From an uncultured Bacilli bacterium (GTDB lineage Bacteria; Bacillota_I; Bacilli_A; RF39; UBA660), in contig CALVOQ010000003.1 in NCBI GenBank assembly GCA_944350335.1, positions 1-34,683 on the forward strand: 34,683 nucleotides of DNA, in the 5' to 3' direction. The position numbers and the translations under genes were made by a program. The notes under the pieces were generated by a model. That model ran no database searches. It had not been told where the DNA came from and saw only the letters and a program-made list of their open reading frames with translations. Positions 10,526-16,493 of the stretch are shown in pieces; position 1 is the first letter of the stretch, and each line of letters begins with the position of its first letter.

Positions 10526-10553
10526 AAAATGCCCGAACAAGGCATTTTTATTT
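10524..10553. terminator. Bidirectional terminator between hsp20 and trxB
   Basis: AAAAATGCC (10525-10533) pairs with GGCATTTTT (10541-10549) over a 7-base loop, flanked by A and T runs. It serves the convergent hsp20 and the nrd-trxB operon, whose stop codon lies in the stem. Confidence 0.85.
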
Positions 10554-11438
10554 ATCTAAATATTTAAGTGCTTTAATCGCTGCAATAGTTCCATCGCTCA
10601 CAGCGGTAGTAACTTGTCTTACTTCCTTATCTCTGCAATCACCTGCGACAAAAATTCCTTCAATATTAGTTAATGTTTCGTTACTAAGATAATAATTATT
10701 GTTATTTGTTTCTATATCACATGTTATATTATTTTCTGGAACCATGCCAATAGCCAAAAATATTCCATCAAGCTTTAATAAAGTTTTTTCATTATTAACC
10801 TTTATTACAACACTTTCCAAAGTTTTATTGCCACAATACTCAGTAATAATGCTATTAAAAAGTACTTGGACGTTACTATTCGTCATCACTTTTTCTTTTA
10901 GACTATTTTCACATTTTAACTTGTTTCCACGACATATTAAGTATACTTTCTGGCACAAATTTGAAAGATATATCGCGTTTATCACTGCAGTATTTCCACC
11001 ACCAACGACAGCAACAGTTTTATTTTTATAAAATGAGCCATCACATGTAGTGCAAAAATGTATGCCAAAACCTATTAAATCATTTTCATTTTTTAAACCT
11101 AATAGCCTATGTTTAACACCCGTTGCAATAATTACAGCTTTAGCACTATAGACCGAATTATTAGTCGTTACTTTTTTTATTTTTCCGTTTTCTATAGAAA
11201 TAACTTCATCAATTTCTATATCAACACCTAATTTTTGAACTTGTTCATAAAATAAATCCGATAATTCACTACCACTTATTTGCTCATATCCAGGGTAGTT
11301 TTCTACCAATGGTGATGATGCAATTTGACCGCCTATACCTTCCTTTTCTAAAATTAATGTCTTAGCACCACCACGCGCTAAATAAATGCCAGCGGTTAAT
11401 CCAGCAGGCCCAGCACCGATAACAATTACATCATACAT
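10548..11438 (-). CDS. trxB: Thioredoxin reductase (NADPH, FAD)
   Basis: A 296-residue flavoprotein disulfide reductase of the low-molecular-weight TrxB type. The FAD-binding GAGPAGLTAG is at the N-terminus, the redox-active CTTC is in the centre (HFCTTCDGSFY), the NADPH-binding GGGNTA follows, and GIFVAGDCRD is near the C-terminus. It reduces thioredoxin-like proteins with NADPH. The start codon overlaps the end of nrdD by eight bases. Because NrdD carries a thioredoxin-like tail, TrxB is a credible electron donor to the reductase itself. This is one of the clearer functional links in the window. Confidence 0.93.
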   Translation of the reverse strand: MYDVIVIGAGPAGLTAGIYLARGGAKTLILEKEGIGGQIASSPLVENYPGYEQISGSELSDLFYEQVQKLGVDIEIDEVISIENGKIKKVTTNNSVYSAKAVIIATGVKHRLLGLKNENDLIGFGIHFCTTCDGSFYKNKTVAVVGGGNTAVINAIYLSNLCQKVYLICRGNKLKCENSLKEKVMTNSNVQVLFNSIITEYCGNKTLESVVIKVNNEKTLLKLDGIFLAIGMVPENNITCDIETNNNNYYLSNETLTNIEGIFVAGDCRDKEVRQVTTAVSDGTIAAIKALKYLDK

Positions 11439-13773
11439 TACAAACCACTTTTTCGTTAATATACTTTTTGATTTCTGATATATTCTTTATTAATTCAACC
11501 TCTCCATTTTGAGCAATTACTAGACTAGGAGCTTGTTTTATTCCATATCTTTTAGTCAAATCGGCCTCTTTTTCAGCATCAATATACGTATAACTAACTT
11601 TAGCCTCGTCCAAAACTTTTTTTGCCATTTTACAATTAGGACAAGTTTTTGTACCAAACAACATAATTCCGTCTTTAGAATTCCCTACTGAATGCGGTTC
11701 TTTGGAGCAATTTAAATCATAAAGTTTGCGCATCTTGTATTCTTTAGCTTTACCATCATTCCAGTTTTTAACAGGCCTATAATATCCTGTAATTCTACTA
11801 TAAACTTCCGTTTCTTCATCACAAACTGGACACTTAAATATTTCACCTGCAAAATATCCATGTTTTTTACAAACTGAATAAGTTGGACTCAAAGTATAGT
11901 AAGGTAACTTATAATTCTCAGCAATTTTTCTAACTAAATTAGCTGCAGATTTCCAATCAGGAAGTCTTTCGCCCAAAAACGCATGGAAAACTGTACCTGA
12001 AGTATATAATGTTTGTAACTCATCTTGAATATCTAAAGCTTCAAAGATATCGCTTGTAAATCCAACTGGAAGATGTGAACTATTAGTATAATATGGTGTT
12101 TCATCATCCGACGCAGTAATTATATTAGGATATAAAGTCTTATCTTTTTTTGCTAAACGATATGATGTACTTTCAGCAGGAGTTGCCTCCAAATTATACA
12201 AGTCACCATATTCTTCTTGATAATCAGATAATTTTTCTCTCATAAAGTTTAATACATCTTTAGTAAACTTCTGAGCTTTTTCATGTGTCAAATCTTCTTT
12301 TATCCATTTTGCATTTAAACAAGCTTCATTCATTCCAACTAATCCAATAGTAGAGAAATGATTGCTAAATGTACCCAAATATCTTTTTGTATATGGATAT
12401 AATCCTTCTTCTAACAATTTAGAAATTACATTTCTTTTGACTTTCAAACTTCTAGCAGAAATATTCATCATTTTTTCTAATCTATCGTAGAAATCTTTTT
12501 CATCTTTTGCAAGATAAGCAATTCTTGGAATATTGATAGTTACAACACCTATTGATCCAGTTGATTCTCCACTTCCAAAATATCCACCAGATTTTTTACG
12601 CAATTCTCTTAAGTCCAATCTCAACCTACAGCACATACTTCTAACATCACTTGGCTCCATATCGCTGTTGATATAATTTGAAAAATAAGGTGTTCCATAT
12701 TTTGCAGTCATTTCAAATAATAATTTGTTGTTTTCTGTTTCGTTCCAATCAAAATTACTAGTTATAGAATATGTAGGGATAGGATATTGGAAACCTCTAC
12801 CATTCGCATCTCCTTCAATCATTATCTCAATAAATGCCTTGTTAACCATATCCATTTCTTTTTGACAATCTTTATATTTAAAATCAACTTCTTTACCACC
12901 AATTATACAATTTAGTTCTGCTAAATCATTTGGTACTACCCAGTCCAAAGTGATATTTGTAAAAGGTGCTTGAGTCCCCCATCTACTAGGAGTATTAACT
13001 CCATAAACAAATGATTGAATACATTGTTTAACTTCGTTTTGAGTTAAATTATCAATTTTAACAAAAGGCGCTAAATAGGTATCAAAAGAAGAAAATGCTT
13101 GAGCGCCAGCCCATTCGTTCTGCATTATACCTAAAAAGTTTACCATTTGATTACATAAAGTACTCAAATGTTTAGCAGGACTAGATGTGATTTTACCAGA
13201 AACACCACCCAAACCTTCTTGAATTAATTGTTTTAAACTCCACCCCGCACAATAACCTGTTAACATTGATAAATCATGTAAATGTATATCACAATTTCTA
13301 TGTGCATCAGCAACGTCTTTATCATAAACTTCACTTAACCAATAATTAGCTGTAATCGCACCAGAATTACTTAGTATTAATCCACCTACAGAATAAGTAA
13401 CTGTTGAATTCTCTTTAACCCTCCAATCAGTAACATTAAGATAACTATTAACTACATCTTTATAATCGAGAATTGTTGACTGCATTGCGCGCTGTTTCTC
13501 GTGAAGTTTACGATACAAAATATATGCTTTCGCAACATCTGCATATCCAGCTTGTGAAAGAACTCTTTCGGCACTATCTTGTATATCTTCAACATCAATA
13601 ATGTTATCCTTAACTTTACTTTCAAAATCAGCAGTAACTTTCAAAGATAAAAAATCTATAACATTTTCATCATAATTCTTATTCTCAGCTTCAAAAGCTT
13701 TCGTAATAGCATCCCCTATTTTTTTAATATCAAATGATACAATTTTACCATCTCTTTTTCTAACTTTATACAT
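11431..13773 (-). CDS. nrdD: Anaerobic ribonucleoside-triphosphate reductase with C-terminal thioredoxin-like domain
   Basis: A 780-residue class III reductase that makes deoxynucleotides through a glycyl radical. Residues 2-92 form an ATP-cone allosteric domain (VRKRDGKIVSF...). The catalytic barrel contains SMCCRLRLDL and SGTVFHAFLGERLPDW. A zinc site (CKKHGYF...CPVC) precedes the radical loop SRITGYYRPVKNWNDGK, in which Gly 663 is the expected radical site. After the usual end comes an extra domain, about residues 703-778, with FGTKTCPNCKMAKKVL (Cys 711 and 714) and a cis-Pro-like QAPSLVI, typical of glutaredoxin/thioredoxin folds. The fusion suggests that reduction uses a dithiol, not formate. 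ATG 13773 follows GGGAGG. It is coupled to trxB and lies 27 bases after nrdG. Confidence 0.95.
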   Translation of the reverse strand: MYKVRKRDGKIVSFDIKKIGDAITKAFEAENKNYDENVIDFLSLKVTADFESKVKDNIIDVEDIQDSAERVLSQAGYADVAKAYILYRKLHEKQRAMQSTILDYKDVVNSYLNVTDWRVKENSTVTYSVGGLILSNSGAITANYWLSEVYDKDVADAHRNCDIHLHDLSMLTGYCAGWSLKQLIQEGLGGVSGKITSSPAKHLSTLCNQMVNFLGIMQNEWAGAQAFSSFDTYLAPFVKIDNLTQNEVKQCIQSFVYGVNTPSRWGTQAPFTNITLDWVVPNDLAELNCIIGGKEVDFKYKDCQKEMDMVNKAFIEIMIEGDANGRGFQYPIPTYSITSNFDWNETENNKLLFEMTAKYGTPYFSNYINSDMEPSDVRSMCCRLRLDLRELRKKSGGYFGSGESTGSIGVVTINIPRIAYLAKDEKDFYDRLEKMMNISARSLKVKRNVISKLLEEGLYPYTKRYLGTFSNHFSTIGLVGMNEACLNAKWIKEDLTHEKAQKFTKDVLNFMREKLSDYQEEYGDLYNLEATPAESTSYRLAKKDKTLYPNIITASDDETPYYTNSSHLPVGFTSDIFEALDIQDELQTLYTSGTVFHAFLGERLPDWKSAANLVRKIAENYKLPYYTLSPTYSVCKKHGYFAGEIFKCPVCDEETEVYSRITGYYRPVKNWNDGKAKEYKMRKLYDLNCSKEPHSVGNSKDGIMLFGTKTCPNCKMAKKVLDEAKVSYTYIDAEKEADLTKRYGIKQAPSLVIAQNGEVELIKNISEIKKYINEKVVCNV

Positions 13774-13800: not shown

Positions 13801-14484
13801 CTATATTCCTCTAACGATAACATTAGGAAATTTTTTATTTAATTTATTTACTAACTCAATAAGTTCAGATTTATCAAAACCATTTAACTTTTGATTCAAA
13901 ACATTAGAACTATTTTCAAAGTTCTGTATATAATATTTTGCATTTTTACCTAAATACTCACAAATGTTATTCAAAATCTTATAATTATGATATTCTTTAA
14001 CTATTGTTGTTCTAAACTCATAATCAATTCCAGATTTTTTTATATAGTCCACGCTTTCAATTATCTTATTATAATCGATATCAATTCCACTGACTAAGGA
14101 AAAATTTACCTTATCAGCTTTTATATCCATAGCAATATAATCAATCAATTTTTCATCAATAAGTTTTTTAAGAACATTTGGATTGTAACCATTCGTATCC
14201 AATTTAACCTTTAAGCCTAAGTCTTTTATACTTTTTATAAAAAACATTATATCTTTTTGCATCGTAGGCTCTCCACCAGTAATTACAACACCATCTAACA
14301 TTGACTTTCTCTTTTTCAAATAATCCATAACATCAGTTTGAGATATGTTTCCTTTTCCAAAAGTGATTAAATCACTATTATGACAAAATGGACATTTAAA
14401 ATTACAACCTTTAGTAAACACAATACATGCAATATGACCAGGATAATCAGTTAAAGTCAATTTTTCAAAACCACTAATTTCCAT
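13801..14484 (-). CDS. nrdG: Anaerobic reductase activating protein (radical SAM)
   Basis: A radical SAM enzyme of 227 residues. The cluster-binding motif is CNFKCPFC (CX3CX2C), followed by VVITGGEPTMQ, the SAM-contacting GGE motif. The opening SGFEKLTLTDYPG is typical of NrdG-like and PFL-activase-like proteins. It generates the glycyl radical on NrdD. ATG 14484 overlaps the TGA of the upstream gene as TGATG, so translation is coupled; a GTG one codon earlier is less likely. Located between an NrdD-like pseudoenzyme and NrdD, it clearly belongs to the anaerobic nucleotide reduction operon. Confidence 0.92.
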   Translation of the reverse strand: MEISGFEKLTLTDYPGHIACIVFTKGCNFKCPFCHNSDLITFGKGNISQTDVMDYLKKRKSMLDGVVITGGEPTMQKDIMFFIKSIKDLGLKVKLDTNGYNPNVLKKLIDEKLIDYIAMDIKADKVNFSLVSGIDIDYNKIIESVDYIKKSGIDYEFRTTIVKEYHNYKILNNICEYLGKNAKYYIQNFENSSNVLNQKLNGFDKSELIELVNKLNKKFPNVIVRGI

Positions 14485-16436
14485 CACGTCACATCCTTAG
14501 TAATAAACTTTAAAAAACCTACATCACTATCAAATATATTAAAAATAAGTTCTTCTAATTTATTAACTGTCATATTTTTATTTACTTTTATTTCTAAAAT
14601 ACTACCACCACTTACTAATTTTTGAATTTCACCAATTAAACTATAATTGTTTTTAATTTCTGGCAAGTTACTGATTAAATCGTACATACATTTATTTTTA
14701 AGTTCTTTTCTATTTCCATAAATTGACTTATCCAAAGCAATTAATTCTTTAGAAGCCGCACTTTTATAAGGTTCATATAAATAAAAGTTTAATTTAGTTT
14801 CTTCTCTAAAGATCATACATTTTTTATTTAAAAACTTAAGTATACCTTTTAATAATTCATATTGCTTAGTAGAGTCTTTTTCTAATAACTGAACACACTC
14901 ATTTAAGCCAATCAGTCCTATTAATAAATTACCATTTTTAATTATCTTTCTTATTTTTTGTCCTCTTTCTAATCTATCATCACTCATAATATTGTTATTA
15001 AAAACAAATTCATAATTGTCTTTATTCTTATTTCCTATTGTTTCAAAACTTAATAGCAACTCACTTTTAACAATTTCAACAATAAAATCTAATTTATTAT
15101 AAAAATTTTTAATATTATCATTTTCAAACTCTAAACCAAGTCTGGCAAAATTAATATTTGTTAAAGCAACAACCATTCTACCTTCAGAACTACTAACATC
15201 TTCATTATTATTTTCGTAAATACGTACTCCATCTGAGAAATATTCAACCTCATTATTTCCTTTATTATATGAAGTTTTATTATTAGATACCATAACATTT
15301 TTATTATTAATAATTAACGAACATATTTCGCTCATATAACTCGCATTATCTTCATTTAGTTTAAAAATAACTATAACATTATTTAATCTACCTAACTCAT
15401 TTAATACTTCTAGCAATGTCTTATTAATACAATTTCCAATAGAACTATCATTTGTACCAAAACTAAACGAATAAGACTTATTAAACATTGAAAGATCTTC
15501 AAACATTTTCTTTAAATTATAATATAAGTCAGATTTACATTTTTCATAGGCATCTTTATAGGCACTATCAAAAATATTTTCAACTTGTTCAGACAACATA
15601 TAAATTGAATAATTTGACATATCAAACGTTATATCCTTTTCTTTGTTAATTAATTCAATAATTTTCTTCAAATTAATATATTTATCAAAACCTGAGACTT
15701 TTAAATAATTAGATAAATATTCAATATATAACAATTTAAACTTTTTAATAGAATAATTTTCTAATAATTTATCTAACGACGGAACATTGATTTCCCCACT
15801 TATTTCAGTAGATAAATCCTCTAACTTATAAACAACGTTTTCAAAACTATTATTCTCTAAAAAATTATTTAAATTTATATGAGTATTTGATAACCTACCT
15901 AAAGAAAAATCACACATATCGTTAATATAAATATTACCTTCGTCATGCTCCCTTAAAAACTTATTATCTATTATATATGACTTTGTAATTTCATTGACTA
16001 CCATCAAGCCATAATTCTTAACGATATCCTTAATTTTACATGAATTATCATTAAGCAAAATATTATCATCATTTATTTTTTCTATGGCCTTTAAGAACTT
16101 ATGTTGTTGTTTCTGAGTAAAAATTTTTCTACTAGCAGCTCTCTTTTTTCTATATTCACTAAATGCATTGTACACTTCTTTAAAGTTACTTTCTTCCAAT
16201 TTTGATTCAATTATATCCTGTATGTCTTCAACATTTATTGTTTTTCTGTTAGCATAATTTATTTCAATATACTTTAGTACGTTTTCATATATTTTATTAA
16301 TCTTTGTTTCTTCACTATTATCATAAACACTATCAAAGGCATTCTTAATTGCAACAGCAATCTTATAACTATTAAAGTTTACTCTTTGACCACTTCTTTT
16401 TACAACAACAAGTTCATCAAAAACATCTTTTTGCAA
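14484..16436 (-). CDS. ATP-cone NrdD-like protein lacking the glycyl radical domain
   Basis: A 650-residue paralogue of NrdD. Residues about 8-98 form an ATP-cone (VVVKRSGQRVNF... TINVEDIQDIIESKL... VYNAFSEYRKKR). The body keeps recognisable barrel landmarks in the right order: EGNIYINDMCDFSLG (compare CDIHLHDLSMLTG in NrdD), EGRMVVALTNINFARLGLE (compare TGSIGVVTINIPRIAYLA), LLIGLIGLNECVQLL (compare STIGLVGMNEACLNA) and VSGGSILEI (compare TSGTVFHAF). It ends soon after that point. The CCRL cysteines, the zinc site and the GY radical loop are absent, so it should not be catalytic. The start is TTG 16436, supported by AGGAGGTGAT three bases upstream. It heads the operon and is translationally coupled to nrdG. 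An allosteric or chaperone-like subunit of the reductase is my inference. Confidence 0.8.
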   Translation of the reverse strand: MQKDVFDELVVVKRSGQRVNFNSYKIAVAIKNAFDSVYDNSEETKINKIYENVLKYIEINYANRKTINVEDIQDIIESKLEESNFKEVYNAFSEYRKKRAASRKIFTQKQQHKFLKAIEKINDDNILLNDNSCKIKDIVKNYGLMVVNEITKSYIIDNKFLREHDEGNIYINDMCDFSLGRLSNTHINLNNFLENNSFENVVYKLEDLSTEISGEINVPSLDKLLENYSIKKFKLLYIEYLSNYLKVSGFDKYINLKKIIELINKEKDITFDMSNYSIYMLSEQVENIFDSAYKDAYEKCKSDLYYNLKKMFEDLSMFNKSYSFSFGTNDSSIGNCINKTLLEVLNELGRLNNVIVIFKLNEDNASYMSEICSLIINNKNVMVSNNKTSYNKGNNEVEYFSDGVRIYENNNEDVSSSEGRMVVALTNINFARLGLEFENDNIKNFYNKLDFIVEIVKSELLLSFETIGNKNKDNYEFVFNNNIMSDDRLERGQKIRKIIKNGNLLIGLIGLNECVQLLEKDSTKQYELLKGILKFLNKKCMIFREETKLNFYLYEPYKSAASKELIALDKSIYGNRKELKNKCMYDLISNLPEIKNNYSLIGEIQKLVSGGSILEIKVNKNMTVNKLEELIFNIFDSDVGFLKFITKDVT

Positions 16437-16464: not shown

Positions 16465-16493
16465 ATAGTACTAAATATATATACTTATGTCAA
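16465..16493 (-). promoter_or_regulatory. Promoter of the nrd operon
   Basis: On the minus strand a perfect TTGACA (16493-16488) is followed after 17 bases by TACTAT (16470-16465), 28 bases before the TTG start. The spacer is an AT alternation (ATATATATTTAGTACT), but I do not see the paired 16-bp boxes expected for NrdR. Confidence 0.7.

Follow-up and report, generated by a model that had tools for sequence, protein, structure and literature searches.

Ribonucleotide reductase (RNR) sets the supply of DNA precursors, and the control of its activity is understood as the work of an ATP-cone carried by the catalytic subunit, by NrdB or by NrdR. Dead paralogues of an RNR large subunit that were kept for another function are also known, namely the inactive viral R1 homologues (e.g. 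cytomegalovirus M45); unlike the protein described here, they belong to class I, act on host cell-death signalling and have no ATP-cone or NrdG context. In class III, the NrdDs of P. copri (8p2c/8p23) and S. thermophilus (9d3x) are active homodimers or tetramers with the NxN flap, HxHD, the cysteines and the glycine. The cone of P. copri NrdD holds two (d)ATP through Lys7, Arg8, Tyr83, Arg87 and Arg91 (PMC11226230). In S. thermophilus, dATP drives dimerisation of the NrdD cones, restraining the connector, and the substrate flap cannot close; in addition, the glycyl-radical domain needs flexibility to meet NrdG (PMC12662201). The cone sits on a partner protein and not on the catalytic subunit in the cone-bearing NrdB of L. 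blandensis (5olk) and in NrdR, i.e. on the radical-generating subunit and on a transcription factor, respectively. In the locus described here the cone is likewise found on a partner protein, but this time on a dead catalytic paralogue (hereafter P), which has the fold and the cone nucleotide-contact residues of the P. copri and S. thermophilus enzymes and none of their catalytic motifs.

The host is a gut bacterium, and the window (the whole 34,683-nt stretch of DNA that was analysed) carries on its minus strand a conserved operon in the order P, nrdG2, nrdD2-glutaredoxin, trxB:

16465..16493, minus strand: promoter-like site, TTGACA-17-TACTAT, 10/12, from a consensus match alone
14484..16436, minus strand: pseudoenzyme NrdD (P), 650 aa, TTG start, from ORF call, Pfam and AlphaFold
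16125..16415, minus strand: ATP-cone of P, residues 8-104, from alignment
13801..14487, minus strand: nrdG2, radical-SAM activase, NrdG2 model TIGR02495, E 8.6e-64
11431..13773, minus strand: nrdD2, complete, PRK08270 type, from Pfam, NCBIfam and alignment
10548..11438, minus strand: trxB-like NADPH-dependent thioredoxin reductase, from ORF call and NCBIfam

The promoter-like site, ~30 nt upstream of the start of P, is a candidate for the operon promoter, and the TTG start codon is preceded by a strong Shine-Dalgarno sequence (minus strand GGAGGTGATTAATTG). The translational coupling to nrdG reported in the earlier note was confirmed: the stop codon of P overlaps the nrdG2 start (GTGATG) by 4 nt (GTGA) or 1 nt (TGATG), according to the nrdG start chosen. 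The nrdD that follows nrdG2 is complete, as had also been claimed, with an MCCR double-cysteine finger loop, an RITGY glycyl loop, its own ATP-cone and a C-terminal glutaredoxin domain, to which TrxB presumably supplies electrons; trxB and nrdD2 overlap by 8 nt. The whole genome (818 kb, 92% complete) encodes two NRDD proteins, P and NrdD2, which carry the only ATP-cones found in it. NrdD2 is the only catalytic RNR subunit found, and searches of the same genome detected neither a class I/II RNR large subunit nor NrdR. Since no class I/II RNR was found at this level of completeness, the operon is probably the only source of dNTPs in the genome examined.

That P is a pseudoenzyme is nearly certain. 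Its architecture comprises an ATP-cone (residues ~8-104), a connector (105-134) and an NrdD barrel (135-650), in agreement with the first reading of the sequence: Pfam detects the cone at residues 10-100 (E 1.1e-15) and NRDD at residues 145-644 (E 6.1e-29, covering 19-504 of the 562 profile positions). The best NCBIfam model, PRK07111 (anaerobic ribonucleoside triphosphate reductase), scores 143.4 bits, far under its curated cut-off of 764. The structural comparison that had been suggested as a check gave the same answer: the AlphaFold model, built as a monomer from 34 natural sequences, has a pLDDT of 86 and a pTM of 0.84, its top 36 PDB matches (Foldseek) are all class III RNR structures (best 8p2c, E 4.3e-28), and its TM against P. 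copri NrdD chains is ~0.69-0.80. The ten-stranded NrdD barrel is thus present by both Pfam and Foldseek and complete to its last strand, and the protein ends just before the position of the glycyl-radical domain. The layout also differs from that of NrdR: P has a cone from residue 10 and then an NrdD barrel, not the barrel-less architecture of an N-terminal zinc ribbon and a cone.

What is missing from P is the chemistry because: (i), in the alignment with E. coli NrdD, the catalytic cysteines are replaced (C175 by N, C384 by D) and the columns of the zinc site and the Gly681 loop are empty. (ii), Cys175, Cys384, the zinc site and the Gly681 loop are all missing in 35/35 P-type proteins of a joint alignment, so that the loss noticed in the single sequence is common to its relatives. 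(iii), the column of C384, the finger-loop thiyl-radical cysteine, holds D, N, T or S in nearly all P-type proteins and C in 31/31 active NrdD1s, while the second active-site cysteine (C175 in E. coli, C79 in T4) is most frequently S, N, H or G in P-type proteins; the catalytic cysteines are retained in active NrdD1 and NrdD2. (iv), HxHD is degenerate and no NxN is conserved across the flap columns of P, and lineage-specific motifs have taken the place of the catalytic ones (EYFSDG for MGCR; Y/F-I-H/N-N/D for H-x-H-D). Tests for the features that define the NrdD catalytic family found none of them in P, which is therefore an RNR component and not a member of that family. We also considered a glycyl domain for P encoded elsewhere, as in the split sister NrdD1s described below, and rejected it: no free-standing glycyl-radical ORF was found in G000 by a search that recovers one in the positive case, G286.

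P has been maintained as part of an operon. All P-type relatives are MAGs and the counts depend on assembly; with this in mind, intact P occurs in ~35 of 291 family genomes. Its full-length members (at least 693 bits) stand clear of intact NrdD1 (at most 588 bits) in a profile search. The gene is neither absent nor broken in close relatives, an outcome that would have undermined the earlier note: all four better-assembled congeners have it intact (650 aa, ~69% identical, same operon order), and no P match was found in the fifth congener, G005, which is 66% complete. The genes for P, NrdG2, NrdD2 and TrxB are inherited together. For 55 of the 56 distinct proteins, nrdG2 lies directly after P, at a junction of -38 to +7 nt, and nrdD2 comes next wherever the contig is long enough; in the lone exception, G292, the gene after P is an NrdD1 that lies where the contig ends. 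Single-sequence patterns found no relative in viral contigs. The pseudoenzyme is common but not obligatory, since G066 and G226 have no pseudoenzyme and carry, besides nrdG2-nrdD2-trxB, a second NrdD that is intact; in G109 and G164, a second NrdD has kept its cysteines and has no glycyl-radical domain.

Selection on P is chiefly for the cone, and constraint is reversed relative to active NrdD1. Mean pairwise identity in P is 0.63 for the cone and 0.35 for the barrel vs 0.53 and 0.70 in active NrdD1 (cone/barrel divergence ratios of 0.57 and 1.62, respectively), and the least conserved segment of P is 216-320, the equivalent of the dimer/s-site helix (28% mean identity). Within the genus, the dN/dS of P (NG86, in AT-rich genomes) is 0.09-0.16, i.e. 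purifying selection, similar to or below that of trxB (0.15-0.17) and nrdG2 (0.17-0.27); taken by part, it is 0.11-0.18 for the barrel and 0.03-0.07 for the cone, close to what is seen for the catalytic nrdD2 (0.04-0.06). The cone residues K13, R14, Y95, R96, R99 and R103 are invariant across aligned members, and those equivalent to Lys7, Arg8, Tyr83, Arg87 and Arg91 of P. copri (K13, R14, Y95, R99 and R103) are so in 33/33 sequences. We thus infer that the cone of P can bind two ATP or two dATP. Considering the reversed constraint, the low dN/dS of the cone and the invariant (d)ATP residues together, we further infer that P has been retained as a nucleotide sensor. In most relatives, the cone of NrdD2 (11431-13773) has a His at the phosphate-binding Arg87 position; because this change is seen with and without P, it gives no hint of a transfer of sensing to P through a defective NrdD2 cone, and we rejected that scenario.

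The evolutionary origin of P lies outside its own operon. In the phylogenetic tree (a quick search with SH-aLRT support only), P and a related group of dead NrdDs (Q) form one clade (support 100) inside the NrdD1s of the family, adjoining NrdD1s with a split glycyl-radical domain, and NrdD2 is a distant outgroup. On this tree, P descends from a formate-type NrdD1, a different subfamily from that of its partner NrdD2, and did not arise as a remnant of the nrdD next to it. The active NrdD1s within which it is nested (PRK07111 type, e.g. L077 and L016) resemble P in having an ATP-cone and a ten-stranded barrel but, unlike P, they retain the two catalytic cysteines and the zinc site, as well as a glycyl-radical domain that is either fused or supplied in trans, and their barrel is more constrained than their cone. 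Other dead NrdDs were found in the genomes compared:

L202:6344-8437, L089:5491-7452, L203:6523-8622 and L205:1493-3775: Q-group dead NrdDs, 653-760 aa
L231:2874-5600 and L232:1911-4569, both plus strand: dead NrdD-NrdG fusion, in two genomes of genus g41, another family
L248:4134-6212, minus strand: E. coli-type dead NrdD of G266, next after trxB in an nrdG2-nrdD2-trxB operon

The Q genes (G009, G178, G214, G279) lie in divergent orientation beside another NrdD and not with nrdG2-nrdD2; this neighbouring NrdD is whole in L089 and L202, whereas in L203 and L205 the contig ends within it. To the question whether the pseudoenzyme always travels with nrdG-nrdD, the answer is therefore nearly always for P, but not for Q. 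The g41 fusion, 908 aa long, is encoded directly downstream of nrdD2-Grx; its NrdD part is dead (C175 to N, C384 to T, RITGY to RINDL) and its NrdG part has the CxxxCxxC motif and exceeds the TIGR02491 cut-off (130.5 vs 126.1 bits). A PFL-activase is the only other activase-like match over the Pfam cut-off in G045. In G266, from which the usual P is absent, the dead NrdD has C175 replaced by S and C384 by N and has no glycyl loop; a dUTPase-like frame follows it in L248. The tree sets both the g41 fusion and the G266 protein apart from P. Judged from these sequences, dead NrdDs beside NrdD2 have arisen at least three times (P, the g41 fusion and G266), which supports the earlier proposal that the pseudoenzyme may be a partner of NrdD or a holder of NrdG.

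The comparison also uncovered variants among catalytic NrdDs. In the sampled relatives, 51 of 83 distinct full-length NrdD1s end after the zinc motif (e.g. L077:5927-8367 and L016:1110-3627, both minus strand, L078 and others) and 30 have the glycyl-radical domain fused. In the split class III RNRs, this domain is encoded by an ORF of ~50-60 aa (...GEGVGFERIRRITGYLVGTVDRFNNAKRAE...RVKH) that closely follows the large gene, at a gap of -29 to +40 nt, and precedes nrdG1; the two pieces share a GEGV..ER(I) segment, and this speaks against a frameshift. The literature searched gave no description of a split NrdD1. The arrangement may be compared with GrcA/YfiD, the spare part of pyruvate formate-lyase (PMC8683613), except that GrcA repairs a complete enzyme whereas the locus of the NrdD1 relatives shows no glycyl-radical domain other than the separate piece. 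Relatives of NrdD2 of ~586 aa, without ATP-cone or glutaredoxin domain and ~70% identical over the barrel, were found at L194:5624-7384 and L195:5360-7117.

The best explanation for a dead NrdD that has kept its cone, that shares an operon of constant order with NrdG2 and NrdD2 and that is joined to NrdG in one case, is a regulatory subunit. We thus propose, with moderate confidence, that P is a putative trans-acting ATP-cone regulatory subunit of the NrdD2/NrdG2 complex. In such a mechanism, the cone of P would bind two ATP or two dATP and P would dock on the NrdD2-NrdG2 assembly through cone-cone contacts like those that dATP induces between NrdD cones, or, alternatively or in addition, through the NrdD-NrdG contact implied by the fusion protein. 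At high dATP, P would hold the complex in a state that cannot be activated or cannot close the substrate flap, and ATP would release the complex from it. P would then be a second nucleotide sensor built from a discarded older enzyme. Three findings count against this proposal, namely that NrdD2 already has its own ATP-cone, that G066 and G226 manage without the pseudoenzyme and that the coupling and the fusion point to NrdG as much as to NrdD2.

In the main rival, P is an adaptor or chaperone: the dead barrel would serve as a docking platform for NrdG2, holding it, stabilising it or passing it on to NrdD2, with nucleotide sensing in a secondary role. In favour of this reading, no feature of the operon is tighter or more constant than the P-nrdG2 junction, and both the covalent fusion to an intact NrdG in g41 and the G045 activase result point the same way. 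However, the strongest constraint is on the cone and not on the barrel that would dock NrdG, and some genomes have nrdG2-nrdD2-trxB without an adjacent pseudoenzyme. We consider this reading rather unlikely as a full account, but holding NrdG2 may be part of the same function as regulation. It is also conceivable, if improbable, that P replaces one NrdD2 monomer, fixing the half-active asymmetry of class III RNR dimers: P. copri NrdD is reported to be asymmetric, with one active, ordered monomer and one inactive (PMC11226230), and P retains the barrel in full up to the last strand. This is difficult to reconcile with the poor conservation of the dimer-helix segment and with the descent of P from another NrdD subfamily than its partner. 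We give equally little credence to a nucleotide-binding protein repurposed for a target outside RNR (e.g. another nucleotide enzyme or a transcription factor): the lineage-specific replacement of the catalytic loop and substrate motifs and the divergent position of Q beside a different NrdD would fit, but every known gene context has an RNR gene as the neighbour. Finally, although all catalytic residues are missing and the barrel evolves fast, a pseudogene or a MAG assembly artefact is hardly credible and was dismissed given the intact 622-688-aa frames in dozens of genomes, the conserved start and coupling and the purifying selection, in line with the earlier view that the gene is not decaying.

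A P-type regulatory subunit is probably undescribed so far: no description of a dead NrdD was found in the open-access literature (most subscription journals were outside this scope), and a search by term of class III reviews and phylogenies returned neither a dead nor a split NrdD in the parts covered. Genomes with NrdD2 and P, with NrdD2 alone and with the pseudo-NrdD-NrdG fusion offer a natural experiment. The recurrence of dead NrdDs linked or fused to the activase suggests a dedicated regulatory subunit of class III RNR, with control possibly exerted at the step in which NrdG activates the enzyme. It is tempting to speculate, although we advance it only tentatively, that this represents a new mode of RNR control, in which anaerobes that swapped a formate-type NrdD1 for a glutaredoxin-fused NrdD2 would repeatedly have retained a dead NrdD as a subunit dedicated to sensing ATP/dATP and gating the installation of the glycyl radical by NrdG, with at least three origins, once through fusion to NrdG and once from a lineage in which the glycyl-radical domain was already separate.
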